From Mucor racemosus (lineage: Eukaryota; Mucoromycota; Mucoromycetes; Mucorales; Mucoraceae): 64,000 nucleotides of DNA. How positions within the stretch are numbered: the first letter of the stretch is position 1; every line of letters starts with the position of its first letter. The DNA lies in NCBI GenBank assembly GCA_027405735.1, contig JAPEHQ010000013.1, positions 1,736,001 to 1,800,000 on the forward strand. The letters run 5' to 3'. Below are positions 18,966-39,448 of this stretch, one piece after another. The translations under genes were made by a program, and so were the position numbers. The notes beneath the pieces are model-generated. The model did not search any database. It saw only the letters and a program-made list of their open reading frames with translations, and was not told the DNA's origin.

Positions 18966-20825
18966 TTCATTCCAATAAACGATATCTCTTGATTAAATTG
19001 CTAGTTTTATTTCACATTAACATATTCCAATAAATCATTCTCAAAGGGCAACTTCCACAAACTATTGCGTATCGAGAAATCATCATCAAAAGTGCGCCTA
19101 TACCTTACTGCACATCTTTATTGCAAAACAATAAAAAGTAGGATTTTTACTGTAATGAATTGCATTTATTACATGTTGTCTCAATTTATATGAAATATGA
19201 AACCCAAACCACTAATCCCCAAATCATATAAATATCTTTATGAAAAACAGATATTTGATCTCTAGTGAAAATGTCCGTTCTCTTCTGTAATGAATCAAAT
19301 TATTAGTATGATAATCCACAGCAGTAATGCTCATATCATTAATCATTAACATATTATTTTGACCATATTATTTATCCAAGATCACCGAATGTCTCAAAAT
19401 ATATACTACAGCTATAATAGTACCTATAATAAGAATTCATTATCCCATTGGTTTGCTGGTTAACTTGTAGGGATCAAATACCCAATTTTTTCAAGTGGGT
19501 CTATAACTTTGCAGCCCATTTTAAATTAGAAATAGCGCTAGAAAATCAGCCAAAACTAGCATATATGAATGACAACTACCGAGGTTAATAAGGAATTGTT
19601 CTCTTTATGCATAATCAAAGCTTTATATAGCGCAATATGTTTCACATTCACTTTTTTAAAAGTATTGGATTTCAAATATTGTTTTAAATAACTATATAAA
19701 CAAATAAGGGCCAGAAAAATAACAGAAAATCATAACCTCTGTTTCTTAAATGAGTTAATTTACTGATATTACACAAATAATGGCTAGACAAATAGTAGAC
19801 AAGGTCATCTACTGGATACTTTTTAAAATTTCAAAATGAAACAATTTAAGAGTAAATTTATTTTTAGAGTTACAAATCGATTCAGAATTAGATGGGCTAC
19901 AAAAATAACTTAATTGAATAATGCTGGTATCTATATAGTTTGCTGTCAAATTTCAAAAACATTCTTGCTTGAGCATTTTCTGAGTCATTGTTGGTAAAAC
20001 GAATGCATTAATGCATCATATCGCCGGTAAATATACTTTATTTAACTGTATATTTGTATACCTACATTATATAAAGCTTATCAATTGATCGTATGCACTT
20101 TATGAAGGATTTTTTTTTCGTATTTATTCATATTTTTCGCATATTTTACGTAGTGAATTCAAAAAAAAAAAACATACTCGATATTTAGCGAACAGTATAA
20201 TATGTTTTTTGAATTATAATGTATCAAGAACTATTTCTGAACCATATACATATTTTTTTATTGGTATATTCATTTATATTTCTTTGTAGAATCATTATCA
20301 AATTTATTGCATTTTCAAATCCTCAACCCCAGATATGGGTGTAGTGCCTATAAATTTGTGAAAATACTAAAAATTTGTCCTTGCATTCTTCCATACTAAA
20401 TTTTTTTTTTTTGTGCTTTTGAAAATTACTGATGAAGTACAAAGTTTTTGATAGCATTTGCTGACATCTGAGCAGCATCTCAGCATTTTTAAATTGAACA
20501 TAAAGCATTATATATATCACAATATTGGAAGTGAAACTGTGGTGGTTCGTCCAACAAAATCCTAGAAAATTACCTCAAATGTCTGATACATTGAAACCCT
20601 TTGTAATAATAAATTAAAAGGTAACGAGCCATCCCTTTTTTTGACATTATATTACAACGGATCGTTACACAAAACTGAGGCTTACATGCAACTCTAATGC
20701 ACACTTTACCTCATCAAGTAAACAGAAATTTTTTGTCGTTTTTAAGAAGCGAGTTTCAATTTGTATAAAATGGGGGCCATCGGTTGTTCGCCTGGCAAGC
20801 TTTTCTTTTATTTCATATTCACAAA
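18966..20825. other. Gene-free stretch
   Basis: AT-rich, with no supported gene. About 19390-19600 matches 54720-54900 in inverse orientation (listed separately). The right end holds the promoter of the first wax-synthase-like gene. Confidence 0.4.
19390..19600 (+). repeat. Repeat family F, copy 1
   Basis: Shares blocks such as TAAATTAGAAAT-GCGCT, ATCAGCCAAAAC and TTTGCTGGT with the reverse complement of 54720-54900. It is diverged with small gaps. The class is unknown. Confidence 0.45.
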
Positions 20826-22262
20826 ATGTACGTGGATCACACAAAACCACCATTCATAGATATAACACTGCCACCAGCGATTATTTTACCGGCATATGCG
20901 CTGATTTCATTATATGGTGTTTTACTAACAATCGACTTTTTTTTACTACGTAATGAACGTCATTTCGCTTCTTTCATCACGCCTAAACAACTACGATTTA
21001 TAATGGCAGTAGTTCATATTATCATACCAATGGTTTACATATCTAGTCATCCACCCTCAAATATTTTATTCGCTTCTGCCCCATGGTTCTTGGCCTCTTA
21101 TTCTGCTCATATGCCAACTGATCAACTCACCATTGAAAAATATATTCATACAATATTCAAAATAACTGTCGATAATGAAGATTCTCTTACAACTTCAAAA
21201 ACAAAAATTAGAATTAAAGGTGCTGCAAAAATTGCTTTGGGTATATTCAAAATCGCATTTATGCATCTCATAATCGATCCTCTCTTACCGCGTCACCCAG
21301 ATTATGCATTAGAATACGCTTGGAATAGTGCAATGAGCATGATATATACTGTTTTATTCGGTATAAAAGCCTATTGTTTATTGGGTGCTGTTGACGTATT
21401 TATGGGAATTGAGCAACTTTTATTTGCCTGGAATATGGTTACTTTATTCAACTCTCCTATAATATCCAATAGTCCAAGAGATTTTTGGAGGTAAGTTCCA
21501 CATAAAAGGAGATAATGGTAAATCTTGATATTAACAATAATATATGAACCTAGTCGACGATGGAATAGAGTGGTTCGAAATCTATTACATTCACAAGTAT
21601 TTGGACCAAATGGAACAGTTGATATAGATGAAAATAAATTCATTACACCGCCATCTTCACTAAATTTGGATATTGCATTAAAAGAGGAAGCTCCAGTCAA
21701 AAAAAGATCTACAAAGAAATCAACTCAAAAAACTACTAGTAAAACAACAGCAACAACCACTACAGAAACAACCACTACAGCAACAGCAAAAAGAGTAACT
21801 CGTGCAGCTGCCGCTGCTGCTGCTGCTGCAAAAGCAAAAAAAGCAGAGGCAAATGAAATAAAGACACAAGCTAGAATCAACACTGAATCCACAGATGAGG
21901 AGGGACATGATGTCATTGTAGCACACAATGGATCAACACAACGATTACCGAAAAAGTCGTTTTGGACAACACGCCAGGGCAAAGGCTTATTGGCATTTAT
22001 TATTAGTGGAGCATTTCATGAATTGATCATTATGAGTGCTTGTCGACATATCACATTAGAAAACTTGGTTTTCTTTACATTACAAGGTATTGCAGTGATG
22101 ATTGAAGTCGAACTTCGACAAGGAAATCTAAAGCAAGAACCTCAAGGCATTATGCGTGTGATTTGTGTAGCACTTCAATTAATATTCATGTCTATTACTG
22201 GTAGATTATTTACAGGTCCTTTTCTTAGATATCAATTTTTCCCAGAGAACCTTGATGTTTAA
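20826..22262 (+). CDS. Wax-synthase-like MBOAT acyltransferase 1
   Basis: Exons 20826..21490 and 21554..22262 (intron 63 nt, GTAAGT/TAG) give 457 aa. The product is multi-pass with hydrophobic segments through most of its length. It carries the wax-synthase/MBOAT core: PRDFWSRRWNRVVRN across the splice junction and SGAFHEL with the presumed catalytic His377. Relatives transfer acyl groups from acyl-CoA to hydroxyl acceptors at the ER; the acceptor here is unknown. About residues 268-350 form a low-complexity K/T/A tract (poly-Thr, then poly-Ala) absent from the paralogue at 32536. The ATG at 20826 was chosen because it aligns with the paralogue start and follows AAA. Paralogy with the gene at 32536 is clear from NRWN/RRWN, VRNLLHSQVF and GAFHEL. 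Confidence 0.85.
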
Positions 22263-32535: not shown

Positions 32536-33730
32536 ATGCCACTTCACTCTTCGCCGTTACTAGATATCGCACTACCTAAACCGATTGTATTACCAACAAT
32601 ACAATTAGCAGGCCTATATGCTTGCATGTTGGGTATAGACTATGTCCTCCTTCGCTACCAAAATAAACTATTTATATCGAAAAACACTCTTAGAGTCGGT
32701 ATGACGGTTATCCACGCCATTGTACCCTTGGCCATAGTATCGCCTCTGCAACCAAATAATGTCACTTTTGCTGCAGTACCTTGGTTTTTAGCCTCATATA
32801 GTGCATATTTACCAACAGAGAATTTCACCTTGACCGAGTGGATAAAAGCTTTGTATAATACTATTGTCGACCGTACACCCACTAACAGCAAAACCAATGT
32901 CAATGTTTTGGGTCTGGTAAAAACTTTAAGGGGTATTGCTAAATTAGCTGTTCTTTATTTTGGTGTCGAGCCATTGTTACCAACTATGCCTGATGATATG
33001 TTGAGATATCCTTGGTTGAGTAAGGAGAGCTTGTTGGATACATTTCTATTTGGATTGAAAGCTTATTTGATTTTGGGTGTGGTTGATATATCAACTGGAT
33101 TAGCTCAAGCTGCAACGGGATGGCGCATGGTAGACATGTTTGATTCGCCATTATTATCGACTAGGTAATAATATAACAAAGTTTATGCCATTTAATTCTG
33201 TTAAACTAACACACGTTTTAACATAGCCCAAAAGATTTTTGGAGGTAATCCCCTGTAACTACTGGATATTTAACCGATTCGCTAACCTACTAACGTTTTT
33301 TTTTTTTTTTAGTAATCGATGGAATAAGACTGTTCGAAACCTTTTGCATAGTCAAGTATTTGCTATTCAAGCAAAGAATGATATGAAAAAAGACGACAAT
33401 ATCAAGGAAATTGAAAAGCCCGAGGGCTTTTTCTCTACCAATCAAGGTCGAGGCATGATGGCATTTATTGTAAGTGGTGCTTTCCATGAATTGATAATTT
33501 GTAGCGTCTGCCGCAAAGTTACATTGGAAAACTTCTGCTTCTTTACAATGCATGGTTTAGTTTGCATGATGGAAGCAAAGTATTTCAACACCAAACAAAA
33601 GCCAACAGGTTGGAAAAGAGCCGCCAGAATTGCACTTAATTTAGGTTTCATGACCTTAACAGGTCGTCTATTCCTTGCCCCTTTCCTTAGAACTAGATTT
33701 ACTGAAATTTTACCTATAACTCAATTTTAA
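32536..33730 (+). CDS. Wax-synthase-like MBOAT acyltransferase 2
   Basis: Exons 32536..33164, 33227..33244 and 33313..33730 (introns 62 and 68 nt) encode 354 aa. The middle exon is only 18 nt. It completes the conserved SPKDFWS-NRWNK motif and is flanked by proper GT/AG signals on both sides; without it the core motif is lost. The presumed catalytic His274 lies in SGAFHEL. The paralogue at 20826 has the same second intron but lacks the first. This copy also lacks the poly-Thr/poly-Ala insertion of copy 1, so it is about 100 residues shorter. Role by family: acyl-CoA-dependent O-acylation at the ER, with unknown acceptor. Confidence 0.85.
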
Positions 33731-35036
33731 TGATTTTTATAATATAACCTAAATTAAAAAATGCAAAAATAATTACATAATTTCGTTACAATCTTTCTGA
33801 AATAATGCGTCGTAGTATCGTGTCAATATATTCTCATTCAGTTATATTCACAATGACATTATAATCACACATGCAGTACAAAATAAGCCTGCTGAATATA
33901 ATATTTGTTTGACTATATGCTGCTGAGAGTTGGTAGCAGCCAAAAACCATCGCAAATTTGCTTTTAAAGTGCAGGGCCATGCCAATTTCGCTAATTTACT
34001 GGATTTTATAGGTATTTTAATGATCTTATTTGCATTATTTATCAGTAGCGTTAGCTGTGAGTATTGATTCTTTAGTTTCCATGTCATTCAAAGATTTCGA
34101 ACTAGAAATAGAGTAATACAAACTGGGATTATTGGCATTTTTCAGACTCAAAAAGCATCACTAATTTGATAGTAAAAACCATGTTTACACGCGATTACGT
34201 TCAGTTCAACGTGTTCTATCTATCAATCATAATGTTATGTAATACTTCATTGGCTGAAATGCATGAGGACCCCCGAATTGGAGAAATTTTTTGGGGCAGA
34301 AGGGAAAAAAGGTAGTTGGTCAATGATCATAAAATAACGCATATTTGGTCATGCCTCTCTCAATTTTTAATTTTTTGTTGACCTCAATACCTCAAATGAT
34401 GCGTACTAATTGGCGCTATTGATTCAAATAGTATTTTTTATATTGTTTATTAAAGTATGTGTTCACAATATCAAATAATGCGTAAATTACTTCTTGCGAA
34501 AATGGTCAATTATAGCAGCTTAAAGTGCTCAAATTCGCCTAAAAATAGGTTCAGCGTAATGCTGGATCATTGTATAATTATTCTGGATACTTTTTGCATA
34601 TTTTTTGGTCGACGAAAAATCGATGATTTTCACCCTTCTCTTGACGAGGTATCATAAGCAAAAAATTGAAAAATTCATATTATTCAAATTTTGTACCCAA
34701 AAATGTCACTTTTTACTAATGCATATATTAATAAAAAATGGTCGGACAATTTTCCTTTTTCATACAAAATTGTTTGTTTTGAGGTCGCTTACTGAAAAAC
34801 TAGACTTTTTCGCAGAAAACCAATTTGATGTTTTTCGATGATAACTCTCTCTATATTTACGTTGTTTGGTTGAAACCTACTTAGAAAAAAAGAGCGCAAA
34901 ATTTTACATTATTTCAATTAGAAAAATATAGCGCTTAAAGGACTTTTTTGTGATGAAAAATCGTGATAAAGTTTTTTTTTGTGAAATCCATCGATTTTTG
35001 ACAGAATCTGAAAGAAAGGATTTTAAAGACCGCAAA
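33731..35036. other. Gene-free stretch left of the Fanzor element
   Basis: AT-rich spacer. Frames at 33848-34087 (-) and 34457-34841 (+) show no recognisable similarity and no good start context. No match to repeat families A-H was seen. Confidence 0.4.
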
Positions 35037-35046
35037 GGGTATTACT
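35037..35046 (+). repeat. Left 10-bp direct repeat of Fanzor element
   Basis: GGGTATTACT, identical and in the same orientation as 39439-39448. It lies six bases outside the left inverted repeat and is interpreted as the target site duplication. Confidence 0.65.
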
Positions 35047-35052
35047 GCAAGC

Positions 35053-35074
35053 CTTGAATCTTGCGAGTATAATA
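35053..35074 (+). repeat. Left inverted repeat of Fanzor element
   Basis: 22 bp beginning CTTGAATCTTGCGAG, perfectly inverted at 39412-39433. The outermost bases beyond it do not match, so the true TIR may be slightly longer and imperfect. Confidence 0.8.
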
Positions 35075-35765
35075 TATTTTACACACTAAACTTACAGGAC
35101 AATCCATATGACAATTCAATGTTAGCATGCCATAGCTTCTACATGGATATACTATATTATTATTTTTAACTCAATTGATAACATTTATAATATAGATAAA
35201 TTTAATTTAACACAGATAATTGTTCTTAAACTCACTTTCAATTTATGTAATTTGCTCAATCAAGTATACTACTGTAGTGTTCGGATCATTGAGATAAATT
35301 TATTGTGCATATTGAAGTAACGCCAGTATAGAATATAATCAAAGTGAGATAGTACAAGAAATTTGTATTGTAGTCGGCTTGAATTTCTTCATTATTCATA
35401 TTCAGTATTATACGTATCTTCTTTATAATCCAGGCTGAATTGACCTACATACATAGTCAAATCAGTATACAGAATGTAATGTATTTCAACTGGCTGCTAA
35501 AATGGCATATAGAATATGAAATCATTTATGATATATTAATTGAGCTCAGGATATAGCCCCATAGATATTGTACATCAAACGTTTATTACACCTTTTCTTT
35601 TTCTTTTCTCTCTCTCTTTCTGATCCTATTTACCACTTTTTCACAAATACATTAATAAAAACATATACAATCAGGATATACAAGTATTACGAGTATGTAT
35701 GACACAAGTAGTGTTCGGTTTTAACATACGAGAACTAACATTTGGTCGATTATAATTTAAGCTAA

Positions 35766-38700
35766 ATGTCCAGCATCCATAAGAAGAAAGAACAGAGGGA
35801 TGCTTTTGATGGCACCCAAACTAGTTACCCGCCTCAATGGAACACTTCAAGTGGAAAAAAAAGAGAACATCCATCATCATCATCCACTGCAGCTCCCATA
35901 ATAAAAAGGCCAAGGACGTCTGGAGTTTCTTCTCAGAGACTGATGGATAGCTTCTATCAATCTATGCGTGATAATATTACAAATACGATTAAACCTATTA
36001 TTGGTAAAGATAAAAAGCTGATAGAATTAAAGAAAACGATGTCTGAAGCGAAGAGGCTCCCTCCTGGAATCCTTAGCAATGCTGAGAAAATATGTAACTG
36101 TAATCAAGGTGAATTAAGCGATTATCTTGAACACCATACTCTTAAGCGAAACTTTGTACACTGGCAAGACTATGTGAAAGAAAATTTTGACAACATTGTA
36201 TTATCTTTTTCATCAGAACCATCAAGTTCTTCAGAAAAAACATTACAGCAACCATCTCAAGCTGAATCTTCTAGCCTCATCCCTTCTCTTCGTCGAGAGC
36301 TCTCTGCAATGGATGTAGTATCTGAAGTATCTTCAATCTCTGGTGCTCCAACCGAAATGTCAGACATTTCCATTGAAAAAGAAGAAGAAAGCATGGAATA
36401 TCGTACCTGTACAGTATCATTTAAAAGCATATTACGAAAAGATGTAAATCCACAGATTGCTGAAGCATTTCTACGCAAAGTAAATGCTGCATTATATAAT
36501 GTATCTGATTATCTCATGGATATCCAACTGGTCGTTTTCACATTGATGCTCTCTATGAAATCATCGCAATTCGTGGTTGCTCAAAATGGAGATGTAGAAT
36601 ATAACAAGTGCCAAGGTTTCCCAATTGAAAGTATCCTTCCATCAGACTTTCGAATGAAATCTGACACCAAATTTTCTGCTCCTCCATTGTCATCAGACGC
36701 TGTCAAGTCTGAGTTCTTCTGCAAAAACTTGAAGCAACTCTTCCAAAGTCAACACATCGACTACCTCCATGTTACATTATTTGGAAAAAAGGGATCAAAA
36801 AGCACAAATCCTATATTTCATGCTTTGGCCGAAAGTAATCATCCGTTGATATCGTCATTTTCTCAGGAAACTCCTCGATCTGCTAATGAATTGATGCAAG
36901 TAGCTTTGAACCTATATAAAGTCAACTTGAAGAATATGTGGTCTGGTAACAAGTTATTCAACAAGATATTGAATAAGGTGATTGAAATCCTCCTCCTGAT
37001 ACATCTTGCTCCCAAACGCGAGAAAAAATATCAGGATTACATTGAATCAAAGTCAAAAGATGATCATGAAAAAGATGATGTTTCAAAGCCTTCTCGAAAT
37101 TCGTTCCACAACGCCATTCGATCAGAGAAGCACAAATTGAAAAAGTATCAGAGAAAGGCTCAAGGTAAAGGAGAAGATAACAAGTGGTTTGTATTAGCTG
37201 AAAAAAGCCAACAGCGAATCAACAATATGCATCAAAGTTTCAGACGCCCTGATCGTGATAAACCTCTTCAAGAAGAATTTGGGTCAGCCTCCAATGATAA
37301 TATTGTCCCGATCGAAGAAATCATCCCATTTAATGAAGTTCTGGAGGAGGAAGAAATGGAGGAAGCAGAATCAGATGATCGTGATGTAACAAGACGACGA
37401 ATTTTAACACTGAAAGCTGTTATAAAAGACCTTATGTTTAATCATTATGGTGAGACTATTACCGATAATCATTTTAAAGAGGAGGTTTCAGATATTACTC
37501 CTGCTGAAACTGCAGTATGTTTAATGTTATCAAACACATTGCTTCCATATATACCAAACAAAGAAAATTATGGTCATATTGGATTTCAACTTCCATTCTT
37601 ATTGTTAGCTAATGATGTGCTTCAATCAGTTGGATATAATAAATTCGTAATGGACTTGTGCCCCACATCCTCCCATGCATCTTTGAGTGCTTTACGATTA
37701 GATGCTCCATCAATTTATGCTTTATGCAGTCAGAAGAATGAAGGCGATCAGATGACCATTTTCGACTTTCAAGGTTATGTCATTGACTCAGTTGTTAAAG
37801 CACGTACCTACAAAGATGCAGTATTCAACTCTTTTTTCGACATTCGTGCTATTAATAATGCTTGTAAATCATATAAATTAACTTTTGCTCATAATGTGAT
37901 AATTTCACCTGGACTTAAATCTGCAAGAATCTTAGGAAATAGACCTATCAAAGACCAAGCTACCAACACAAACACCAACGCAAACTTGATCGACATTGAT
38001 TGGGACACTGTCAAAGATTTACAGTCGAGAAGCAATCAAGAATTGAAATCTGACATTGCTGATATAGGACAACAGATTCAGAATGTTTCTGCACTATTAA
38101 AAGAGCACAGCAGACAATTCAGACGAGACAATTTTTCTACAAGAATCAAAGATTTAAAAATTCAATGGAAGAATGATCATAGTAAATATCAGGAAATCCA
38201 AAAATTGAAAGCAGATAGATTCAATGCTTTTAGTGCTCTACAAGCGACGAAGCAACAGCTTGCTGATCTTAGGAGTCAACAATATTATTCAAGAAAAGCC
38301 ATTCAGTATCGCAATAAGAATATACCAAGTATTGCAAGGACTGAAGAAATTCATAATGAAGAATCCCTTGGAAATTTGATATTCTCAGGAACAGACAATG
38401 GTCTCAAAGTTATGACTGAAACAGTTGCTGTTGACATTAACAAGTATAAATACTGCTTAAATCTGCATAACAAATACTCTCCTCTTGCTTCTGATAATGA
38501 CAACGATGATCTTGATGCAGCATCTGACGTTTTCCAGACCCTTCCAGAATCGTATAAGATGTATGCCGAAGATATTGATTTCGGCTCTGGTCAATTCAGA
38601 AAGAGGAAAATGATGGAAAAAGACAAACAAAGCACAGAAGGCAGACAAGTAAAGATGATTGAAACCAAACTGTCCAAATCTAGTGTATATTTATCAAAGA

Positions 38701-39353
38701 ATGTTGATGAAATTCAGAGCAGATTGGTTAATCGTAAGGAAGATATCAAAACGCTCCGTGCATTCTACTATTCAAAGAAAATGGCTAATTTAACAAGAAG
38801 TACTGAATGCAATGACAAAAGATTTCGCTCCGGTGCTGCCTCCAAAGAAAGATCTTTTTGTGTTGGTAGACGTCCACAAGCGTCCCTTATAATGTTTATT
38901 GGGGATAGAGGCACTGGTGTTGGTTCGAGGCTGAAAGGCCATCTAAAATACGGAGGTAAATGGAAGCCAAAACTGCATGCTGTTTCTTCTGCTATCCATT
39001 TTATAAATGAACACAAGACATCCCAAACTTGTATGTTTTGTTTTGGTCCACTCACACATCCCAAAAGAACTAGTAAAGATAAATCAGCAAAAAAGACAGT
39101 AAATGGTGCTTTTTGGTGCCTTAATCCAAGATGTATTTCTGTCAGATCTCACAAGCCAATTCAATCAAGAGACAAAACATCCGCTTTGGCTATTGCTGTA
39201 TCTGGCCTTTCTAATTTAATTTTTAATGAGCCATTACCAGTGTTCAATCCTAAACCCAGTCAATCCTATACTGGTATTTTCACCAAGACCAACGCTTTCT
39301 GTTCAAGAAATGAGCATGGGGACGGCAGCGGTGCTGCATCAGCGGAGGCTTGA
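35766..39353 (+). CDS. Fanzor-like RNA-guided nuclease (TnpB homologue)
   Basis: One intronless frame of 1195 aa in a window where other genes average several introns. The C-terminal third has the layout of the TnpB/Fanzor nuclease: RuvC-I Asp877 in SGTDNGLKV, a Gly-rich FIGDRGTGVG strand near 1046, then INEHKTSQTC with Glu1082, a zinc ribbon C1089-x2-C1092 ... C1118-x4-C1123, and RuvC-III Asp1136 in HKPIQSRDKTSALAI. Fanzor proteins use an RNA from the element's end to guide DNA cleavage; that activity is inferred here. The Gly-rich strand has no Glu at the usual RuvC-II place, so Glu1082 may serve instead, as reported for many Fanzors. The N-terminus is long: low-complexity with a possible NLS (IIKRPR), an acidic patch at 526-540 and a coiled coil ~749-840. 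No stop or frameshift is seen. Confidence 0.75.
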   Translation: MSSIHKKKEQRDAFDGTQTSYPPQWNTSSGKKREHPSSSSTAAPIIKRPRTSGVSSQRLMDSFYQSMRDNITNTIKPIIGKDKKLIELKKTMSEAKRLPPGILSNAEKICNCNQGELSDYLEHHTLKRNFVHWQDYVKENFDNIVLSFSSEPSSSSEKTLQQPSQAESSSLIPSLRRELSAMDVVSEVSSISGAPTEMSDISIEKEEESMEYRTCTVSFKSILRKDVNPQIAEAFLRKVNAALYNVSDYLMDIQLVVFTLMLSMKSSQFVVAQNGDVEYNKCQGFPIESILPSDFRMKSDTKFSAPPLSSDAVKSEFFCKNLKQLFQSQHIDYLHVTLFGKKGSKSTNPIFHALAESNHPLISSFSQETPRSANELMQVALNLYKVNLKNMWSGNKLFNKILNKVIEILLLIHLAPKREKKYQDYIESKSKDDHEKDDVSKPSRNSFHNAIRSEKHKLKKYQRKAQGKGEDNKWFVLAEKSQQRINNMHQSFRRPDRDKPLQEEFGSASNDNIVPIEEIIPFNEVLEEEEMEEAESDDRDVTRRRILTLKAVIKDLMFNHYGETITDNHFKEEVSDITPAETAVCLMLSNTLLPYIPNKENYGHIGFQLPFLLLANDVLQSVGYNKFVMDLCPTSSHASLSALRLDAPSIYALCSQKNEGDQMTIFDFQGYVIDSVVKARTYKDAVFNSFFDIRAINNACKSYKLTFAHNVIISPGLKSARILGNRPIKDQATNTNTNANLIDIDWDTVKDLQSRSNQELKSDIADIGQQIQNVSALLKEHSRQFRRDNFSTRIKDLKIQWKNDHSKYQEIQKLKADRFNAFSALQATKQQLADLRSQQYYSRKAIQYRNKNIPSIARTEEIHNEESLGNLIFSGTDNGLKVMTETVAVDINKYKYCLNLHNKYSPLASDNDNDDLDAASDVFQTLPESYKMYAEDIDFGSGQFRKRKMMEKDKQSTEGRQVKMIETKLSKSSVYLSKNVDEIQSRLVNRKEDIKTLRAFYYSKKMANLTRSTECNDKRFRSGAASKERSFCVGRRPQASLIMFIGDRGTGVGSRLKGHLKYGGKWKPKLHAVSSAIHFINEHKTSQTCMFCFGPLTHPKRTSKDKSAKKTVNGAFWCLNPRCISVRSHKPIQSRDKTSALAIAVSGLSNLIFNEPLPVFNPKPSQSYTGIFTKTNAFCSRNEHGDGSGAASAEA

Positions 39354-39438
39354 ATCTGGTAAGTTGTAGTAAAAATTGGCTAAGCTATATGGCATTTACT
39401 AATATGGTAATTATTATACTCGCAAGATTCAAGTTTTC
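39354..39438 (+). other. Fanzor element right end, candidate guide-RNA region
   Basis: Only 85 bp separate the nuclease stop codon from the proposed element end, including the right inverted repeat. In TnpB and Fanzor loci the guide-RNA scaffold overlaps the nuclease 3' end and runs to the element end, with the guide read from flanking DNA. By analogy, the scaffold would lie here and in the last part of the gene. No secondary structure was computed. Confidence 0.35.
39412..39433 (-). repeat. Right inverted repeat of Fanzor element
   Basis: Perfect inverse of 35053-35074 over 22 bp, five bases inside the right direct repeat. Confidence 0.8.
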
Positions 39439-39448
39439 GGGTATTACT
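39439..39448 (+). repeat. Right 10-bp direct repeat of Fanzor element
   Basis: GGGTATTACT, the partner of 35037-35046. Confidence 0.65.

Follow-up and report, generated by a model that had tools for sequence, protein, structure and literature searches.

An unusually large Fanzor1-like protein as the probable passenger of a terminal-inverted-repeat transposon in Mucor racemosus

To characterise a long, intron-free gene of the fungus Mucor racemosus, we analysed a stretch of 64,000 nucleotides (assembly GCA_027405735.1, contig JAPEHQ010000013.1, positions 1,736,001 to 1,800,000 of the forward strand; hereafter the window, in whose coordinates all positions are given). The gene occupies 35766..39353 of the forward strand, starts with ATG and encodes 1195 residues in a single frame. 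It probably encodes an unusually large Fanzor1-like protein, a predicted nuclease, which is carried as a passenger and as the sole gene of a transposon that is bounded by terminal inverted repeats (TIRs) and leaves duplications of 8-9 bp. An earlier note on this DNA had described an unbroken 1195-codon frame without introns and a set of C-terminal residues (Asp877, Glu1082, two cysteine pairs and Asp1136), all of which we found in place. Its claim of nearly double the length of well-studied Fanzors also agrees with the published sizes, as most Fz1 proteins have 600-700 residues (PMC11423790) and some Fanzor1 proteins reach about 800 (PMC10711439). That note mentioned neither the transposon as a whole nor its copies, its short derivatives and its structured right end.

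Relationship of the protein to TnpB and Fanzor

The motif D-X(125,275)-[TS][TS]-X-X-C4 zinc finger-X(5,50)-RD is reported only in TnpB and Fanzor proteins (PMC3627910), and the window protein contains it. In order along the forward strand, the protein contains GTDNG (from residue 875; 38388..38402), MFIGDRG (from residue 1043; 38892..38912), NEHKTSQTC (from residue 1081), which opens the segment with Glu1082, the TS motif and the C4 zinc ribbon C1089-x2-C1092 and C1118-x4-C1123 (39006..39134), and SRDKTSALAI (from residue 1134), whose RD motif (39168..39173) holds the candidate RuvC-III aspartate Asp1136. Asp877 within GTDNG is a candidate for the RuvC-I aspartate on the strength of its motif. 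Among 13 proteins of the family the diagnostic motif was found in its loose form in seven and in a stricter form in six, P0005 missing the latter because its GTDNG is too distant from the ribbon. Five of the six proteins with neither form (P0002, P0006, P0008, P0010 and P0012) lack the ribbon or end within or before it, and P0007 is without TS..C..C. Since none of 6500 shuffled sequences (500 for each of the 13 proteins) contained the motif, the match is not a product of chance. Two residues are extremely conserved in Fanzor1, G500 and E536 of SPu-1-1p, which lie 36 positions apart (PMC3627910). Gly1046, within MFIGDRG, and Glu1082 have the same spacing, by which Gly1046 corresponds to the Fanzor1-specific glycine, and both are invariant in an alignment of six sequences and in family 2, a related set of genes in the same genome that is described below. 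The residues of the catalytic motifs, GTDNG included, are likewise retained in family 2, and they persist in the Mucor relatives P0001, P0003, P0004 and P0005.

Profile comparison pointed in the same direction for the end of the protein. In hhalign against 11 TnpB proteins, the region from the TS motif through the C4 ribbon to the following aspartate, Asp1136, aligned with its bacterial counterpart (score 38.5, P 2.3e-4, probability 45%), while the best control scores were 29.0 in 150 column shuffles, 30.7 in 150 shuffles with fixed cysteines and 14.6 on reversal, so that 0 of 300 shuffles reached 38.5. Database searches yielded 5 relatives initially, 6 with a profile and 11 with a C-terminal profile (E value up to 1), the named organisms all being Mucor. 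Identities to the window protein of 42-55% were found in five relatives, of which four belong to Mucor species and the fifth lies on a JGI contig of 5.2 kb. A degenerate Fanzor1 motif had no match in IMG/VR. The motif and profile comparisons support a TnpB/Fanzor-like C-terminal third. The RuvC/zinc-ribbon order that the earlier note had recognised was borne out in its diagnostic motif, in the Gly/Glu pair and in the profile of the ribbon and RuvC-III, but not in the RuvC-I stretch, which did not align.

Several results weigh against a Fanzor identity. The RuvC-I stretch (residues 846-945) scored no better against the TnpB profile than shuffled sequence, 48 of 100 shuffles scoring as high. The earlier note had proposed a profile hidden Markov model (HMM) search and a fold prediction as checks, and neither lent it support: searches of Pfam, NCBIfam and PDB sequences with the open reading frame (ORF), the alignments and the relatives returned no significant family, and the AlphaFold models were unusable, with a mean predicted local distance difference test (pLDDT) of 36.4 for the whole ORF (6 sequences) and 44.0 for residues 546-1195 (13 sequences). 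Below threshold, PF07282 matched one of the six A1 members (E 0.53), the C-terminus of family 2 (0.21) and P0009 (0.25), the latter two at the ribbon, and gave no match for the window protein. As a sensitivity control we used the undisputed TnpB InsQ, and no entry named Fanzor was among the 36 PDB sequences that it listed with E values up to 10; the negative outcome of the PDB and HMM searches therefore says little. The divergence of the protein could also mean that it is a RuvC-type descendant of TnpB or Fanzor that works without a guide RNA and assists transposition as an accessory factor, by binding DNA or as a nuclease. Curated HMMs all stay below threshold, the RuvC-I profile is unrecognisable and about 490 additional residues precede the RuvC-I motif when compared with SpuFz1 (Asp877 against Asp383), all of which would fit such a factor. 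The persistence of the catalytic-motif residues in family 2 and in the four Mucor relatives argues against it, as does the structured right end of the element, and we regard a guide-less role as unlikely.

PF07282 has 11 matches in the genome at E up to 1, five of them above the cut-off and none corresponding to the window ORF. The genome additionally holds predicted genes of a more canonical Fanzor or TnpB-like type.

Transposon ends, target site and copies

The Fanzor-like gene is the sole long ORF of a mobile element of 4393 bp (35047..39439, forward strand), the boundaries of which were set by the positions where DNA identity among copies in the same genome starts and stops. The ends are TIRs of about 28 bp (left 35047..35074, forward strand; right 39412..39439, reverse strand), flanked by the 9-bp target-site duplication GGTATTACT on the left (35038..35046) and GGTATTACT on the right (39440..39448). 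With up to two mismatches allowed, the whole genome (53.2 Mb, 54 contigs) contains 84 occurrences of the TIR core and none of a reversed control pattern. Exact duplications of 8-9 bp flank six of the 11 elements for which a script paired both ends; the duplication of L008 has a two-base offset on its left side, and an exact duplication was not found in the remaining four, all short (L041, L043, L063 and L064). Duplications of 8-9 bp were recognised by eye also at L003, L004, L007 and L013, and the left end of L006 was missed by the script. Three of the ten near-full copies (L003, L004 and L007) have lost bases of the left TIR with the duplication retained, and the right end is complete in all ten; the losses may perhaps reflect abortive excision.

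The left flanks hold an oriented target-site motif with the approximate consensus TTYRANNNYCG, which in the window lies at 35022..35032 (forward strand) and ends 14 nt before the left end. We collected 52 ends and, after dropping three that were unclear, compared 24 left with 25 right flanks. In 14 of the 24 left flanks a regular expression for the motif matches with its start 24-26 nt ahead of the element, and the best 11 columns of the left flanks carry 5.96 bits, whereas 2000 shuffles gave at most 2.43 and the right flanks 1.42. Five left-flank columns exceed 0.75 bit, a number reached by none of the 2000 shuffles, and no right-flank column does so. By eye the motif lies about 5 nt before the duplication. 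Some left flanks resemble, by eye, the starts of coding genes. tRNA genes were considered as insertion sites and rejected, as ARAGORN predicted 0 tRNAs in 11 restored sites; a likeness of the motif to an RNA polymerase III B box was noticed but is not claimed here.

At least ten near-full copies are present in the genome, the window copy included, with protein identities of 96-100%; the nine located elsewhere are 96-98% identical to the window protein, and the matches to the protein number 41 altogether when the second family is counted. The transposon has spread recently. The frame is intact (1194-1196 codons) in eight of the ten near-full copies, the exceptions being L007, with a stop at codon 839, and L010, with one at codon 1168. 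In a simulation with 40 random substitutions a fraction of 0.208 of the copies remained free of stops, and by hand calculation the binomial chance of eight intact copies out of ten is about 1e-4, counting stops only. The ratio of nonsynonymous to synonymous substitutions (dN/dS, summed dN over summed dS for 45 pairs) is 0.32. Purifying selection acts among the copies.

In addition to the near-full copies and to several fragments, the genome contains short elements that measure about 600-1000 bp and lie between a pair of TIR cores (the neighbour of the L003 copy, L041, L043, L063, L064 and L066), all six of which match 175-345 bp of the final 350 bp of the full element. In L036 and L042, for each of which one TIR core was found, 308 and 280 bp matched in the right-end region. 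A few bases separate the short derivative at L003 (5190-5855) from the right end of the full copy. A fungal transcription-factor domain is encoded beside one copy. PF07282 also recognises a zinc ribbon of the Fanzor type at C19:930545-930881, some 150 bp away from a further occurrence of the TIR core, so another Fanzor type may use these ends.

Right end, family 2 and mobilisation

The last 100 nt of the element (39340..39439, forward strand) form a candidate guide-RNA scaffold in which the region of the stop codon pairs with the right TIR (-28.6 kcal/mol, z -4.24; 0 of 200 shuffles fold as low). The corresponding end of the short derivative L042 has a z of -3.90, the left end of the element -0.81 and four other 100-nt stretches of the gene -0.75 to +0.29. 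Of 66 windows placed along the element, none has a lower z than the one at the 3' end. Across 11 of 15 right ends (the full copy of L003, L010, L014 and L031 were left out of the alignment) the hairpin pairs in 94.8% of cells, compared with 30-44% when slid. Just upstream of the stop codon lies a small stem-loop, GCAGC/GCTGC (39325..39337, forward strand), paired in 96.4% of cells in 11 sequences with little variation. The 5' arm of the hairpin occurs 38 times in the genome and is followed in 29 cases by an opposed TIR at a distance of 63-74 bp downstream. Several short derivatives keep the structured right end in part or whole. No Rfam family matched the window at the gathering threshold.

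A guide-RNA function of this end is challenged by several observations. Two coding windows also reach z values of -3.7 and -3.2, L034 (the same place as L018) retains no more than about 100 bp at the right end, covariation is slight (two pairs changed on both sides among the 11 right ends) and family 2 shows no structure at its 3' end (z +0.43 and +0.62). Moreover, the hairpin arm repeats the TIR core internally in inverted orientation and may therefore act at the DNA level, as a repeat bound by a transposase. The right-end hairpin might accordingly be nothing but a subterminal inverted DNA repeat with no guide RNA encoded there, an explanation which the copied core, the small covariation and the plain end of family 2 all favour. 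It accounts less well for the window copy, in which G-U pairs and an internal stem extend the pairing past the TIR core, and for the upstream stem-loop, which is retained in elements that have lost most of the gene; on balance we consider it less likely than not.

Family 2 was found at 20 places (L015, L020-L030 and eight others) and is 31-32% identical to the window protein over long matches and 34% identical to its C-terminal 650 residues. Eleven copies share 97.6-99.0% DNA identity with L020 over long matches. The element that carries them has a left foldback, the short direct repeat CAGTAT at both ends and apparent GT-AG introns, and no target duplication was seen in the nine copies, out of 12, for which both ends were located; it looks Crypton-like. 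A frameshift shared by these copies was considered and dropped, as the stretches resemble GT-AG introns. The presence of related proteins on two different chassis favours a passenger role.

As to the transposase, coding remnants between these TIRs are Fanzor-like in L062, L066 and L069, and eight ORFs beside lone TIRs (L061, L065, L067 and L068) gave host-type or no Pfam domains and none of a transposase; no transposase domain was found in nine ORFs of L061, L062, L065, L067 and L068 or in one of L069. The domains of Mutator-like elements (MULEs), PF10551 and PF03108, have 0 matches in the genome, with weak search controls, that for PF03108 being positive nowhere and that for PF10551 only in three prokaryote genomes. 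PF18758 and PF05699 have 7 and 70 matches, and none of these hAT and KDZ matches lies within 6 kb of any of the 84 TIR cores. That no transposase with these TIRs was found, in a search that covered a minority of the lone TIR matches, also counts against a passenger role. The protein itself could be the transposase of a self-sufficient TIR element; as a derivative of TnpB/Fanzor it would recognise the TIRs, carry out cutting and joining and choose the oriented target motif. The element has no other long ORF, the frame of the protein is kept intact by selection, the MULE, hAT and KDZ searches offered no other enzyme, the TIRs are common to the short derivatives and the target motif is precise and oriented. 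On the other side, the related protein of family 2 resides on an element that lacks these TIRs and shows no target duplication, TnpB was dispensable for transposition in the three elements tested (PMC3627910), and the transposase search was limited in coverage and in its MULE controls; we consider a transposase function improbable. A variant that we consider very improbable is a self-sufficient fusion, in which the extra N-terminal half would recognise the TIRs and the target motif, and a single TnpB-descended protein would move the element and, together with a right-end RNA, protect it, with no classical transposase involved.

Under the preferred reading of a passenger Fanzor, a transposase encoded elsewhere would mobilise the element through its TIRs. 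A right-end transcript, running from the stop-codon region through the 3' untranslated region and the right TIR into the flank, would provide both scaffold and guide. The flank-derived guide would direct the protein to cut the empty site after excision, and repair would restore the element. If the protein is active, the known size range of Fanzor1 would extend from about 600-800 to about 1200 residues, and the family would be one that the curated domain model PF07282 misses, so that surveys based on this model would undercount Fanzors. A single genome that combines several intact copies of nearly the same sequence with short derivatives and with a second, related family on another transposon represents a natural test of how Fanzors may aid the persistence of transposons.

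Elsewhere in the window, two similar multi-exon membrane-protein genes (20784-22262 and 32536-33730) appear by eye to be paralogues and are perhaps wax-synthase-like.

Comparison with known systems

Fanzor1 genes in MuDr-like elements that lack a transposase and have 9-bp duplications are described from Rhizopus, Phycomyces and Mucor of the Mucorales (PMC3627910). The window element is likened to them by layout only: a gene of Fanzor1 type lies between TIRs, a gene for a transposase is missing, duplications of 9 bp occur and the hosts are fungi related to Mucor. It differs in that the duplications here are of 8 or 9 bp. MCi-4 and PBl-3 of that paper may belong to the same family. Fanzor1 in transposase-less elements is already known, and the difference here is the size; literature searches judged mainly by titles found no paper title on a Fanzor of such size. 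The bacterial TnpB InsQ of IS609 from E. coli K-12 aligns with the window protein at the TS..C..C ribbon and the following aspartate, but it has 402 residues instead of 1195, and the RuvC-I stretch of the window protein could not be aligned. Elements of the IS609 class are described as lacking TIRs and target duplications (PMC3627910).

With SpuFz1 of Spizellomyces (PMC10432273) the window protein shares the motif order of an Asp, a Glu before the zinc finger and an Asp after it, and the two elements have in common inverted repeats and many gene-less ghost copies, which are reported in Spizellomyces as well. The first catalytic aspartate of SpuFz1 is at 383 and its candidate counterpart here at 877; SpuFz1 activity has been demonstrated, whereas the window protein is known from its sequence. 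The 3' end of the SpuFz1 omega-RNA is flanking sequence, and the candidate RNA of the right end here would likewise run into its flank. For an ascoviral Fanzor1 a TIR and a duplication are predicted within the RNA scaffold, a layout that the right end described here resembles (PMC10711439). PpFz1 of Parasitella parasitica, which is active in vitro, also comes from a host of the Mucorales and is also enlarged by an insertion, but its insertion of about 100 residues lies inside RuvC, whereas the excess in the window protein lies mainly before the RuvC-I motif (PMC11423790).

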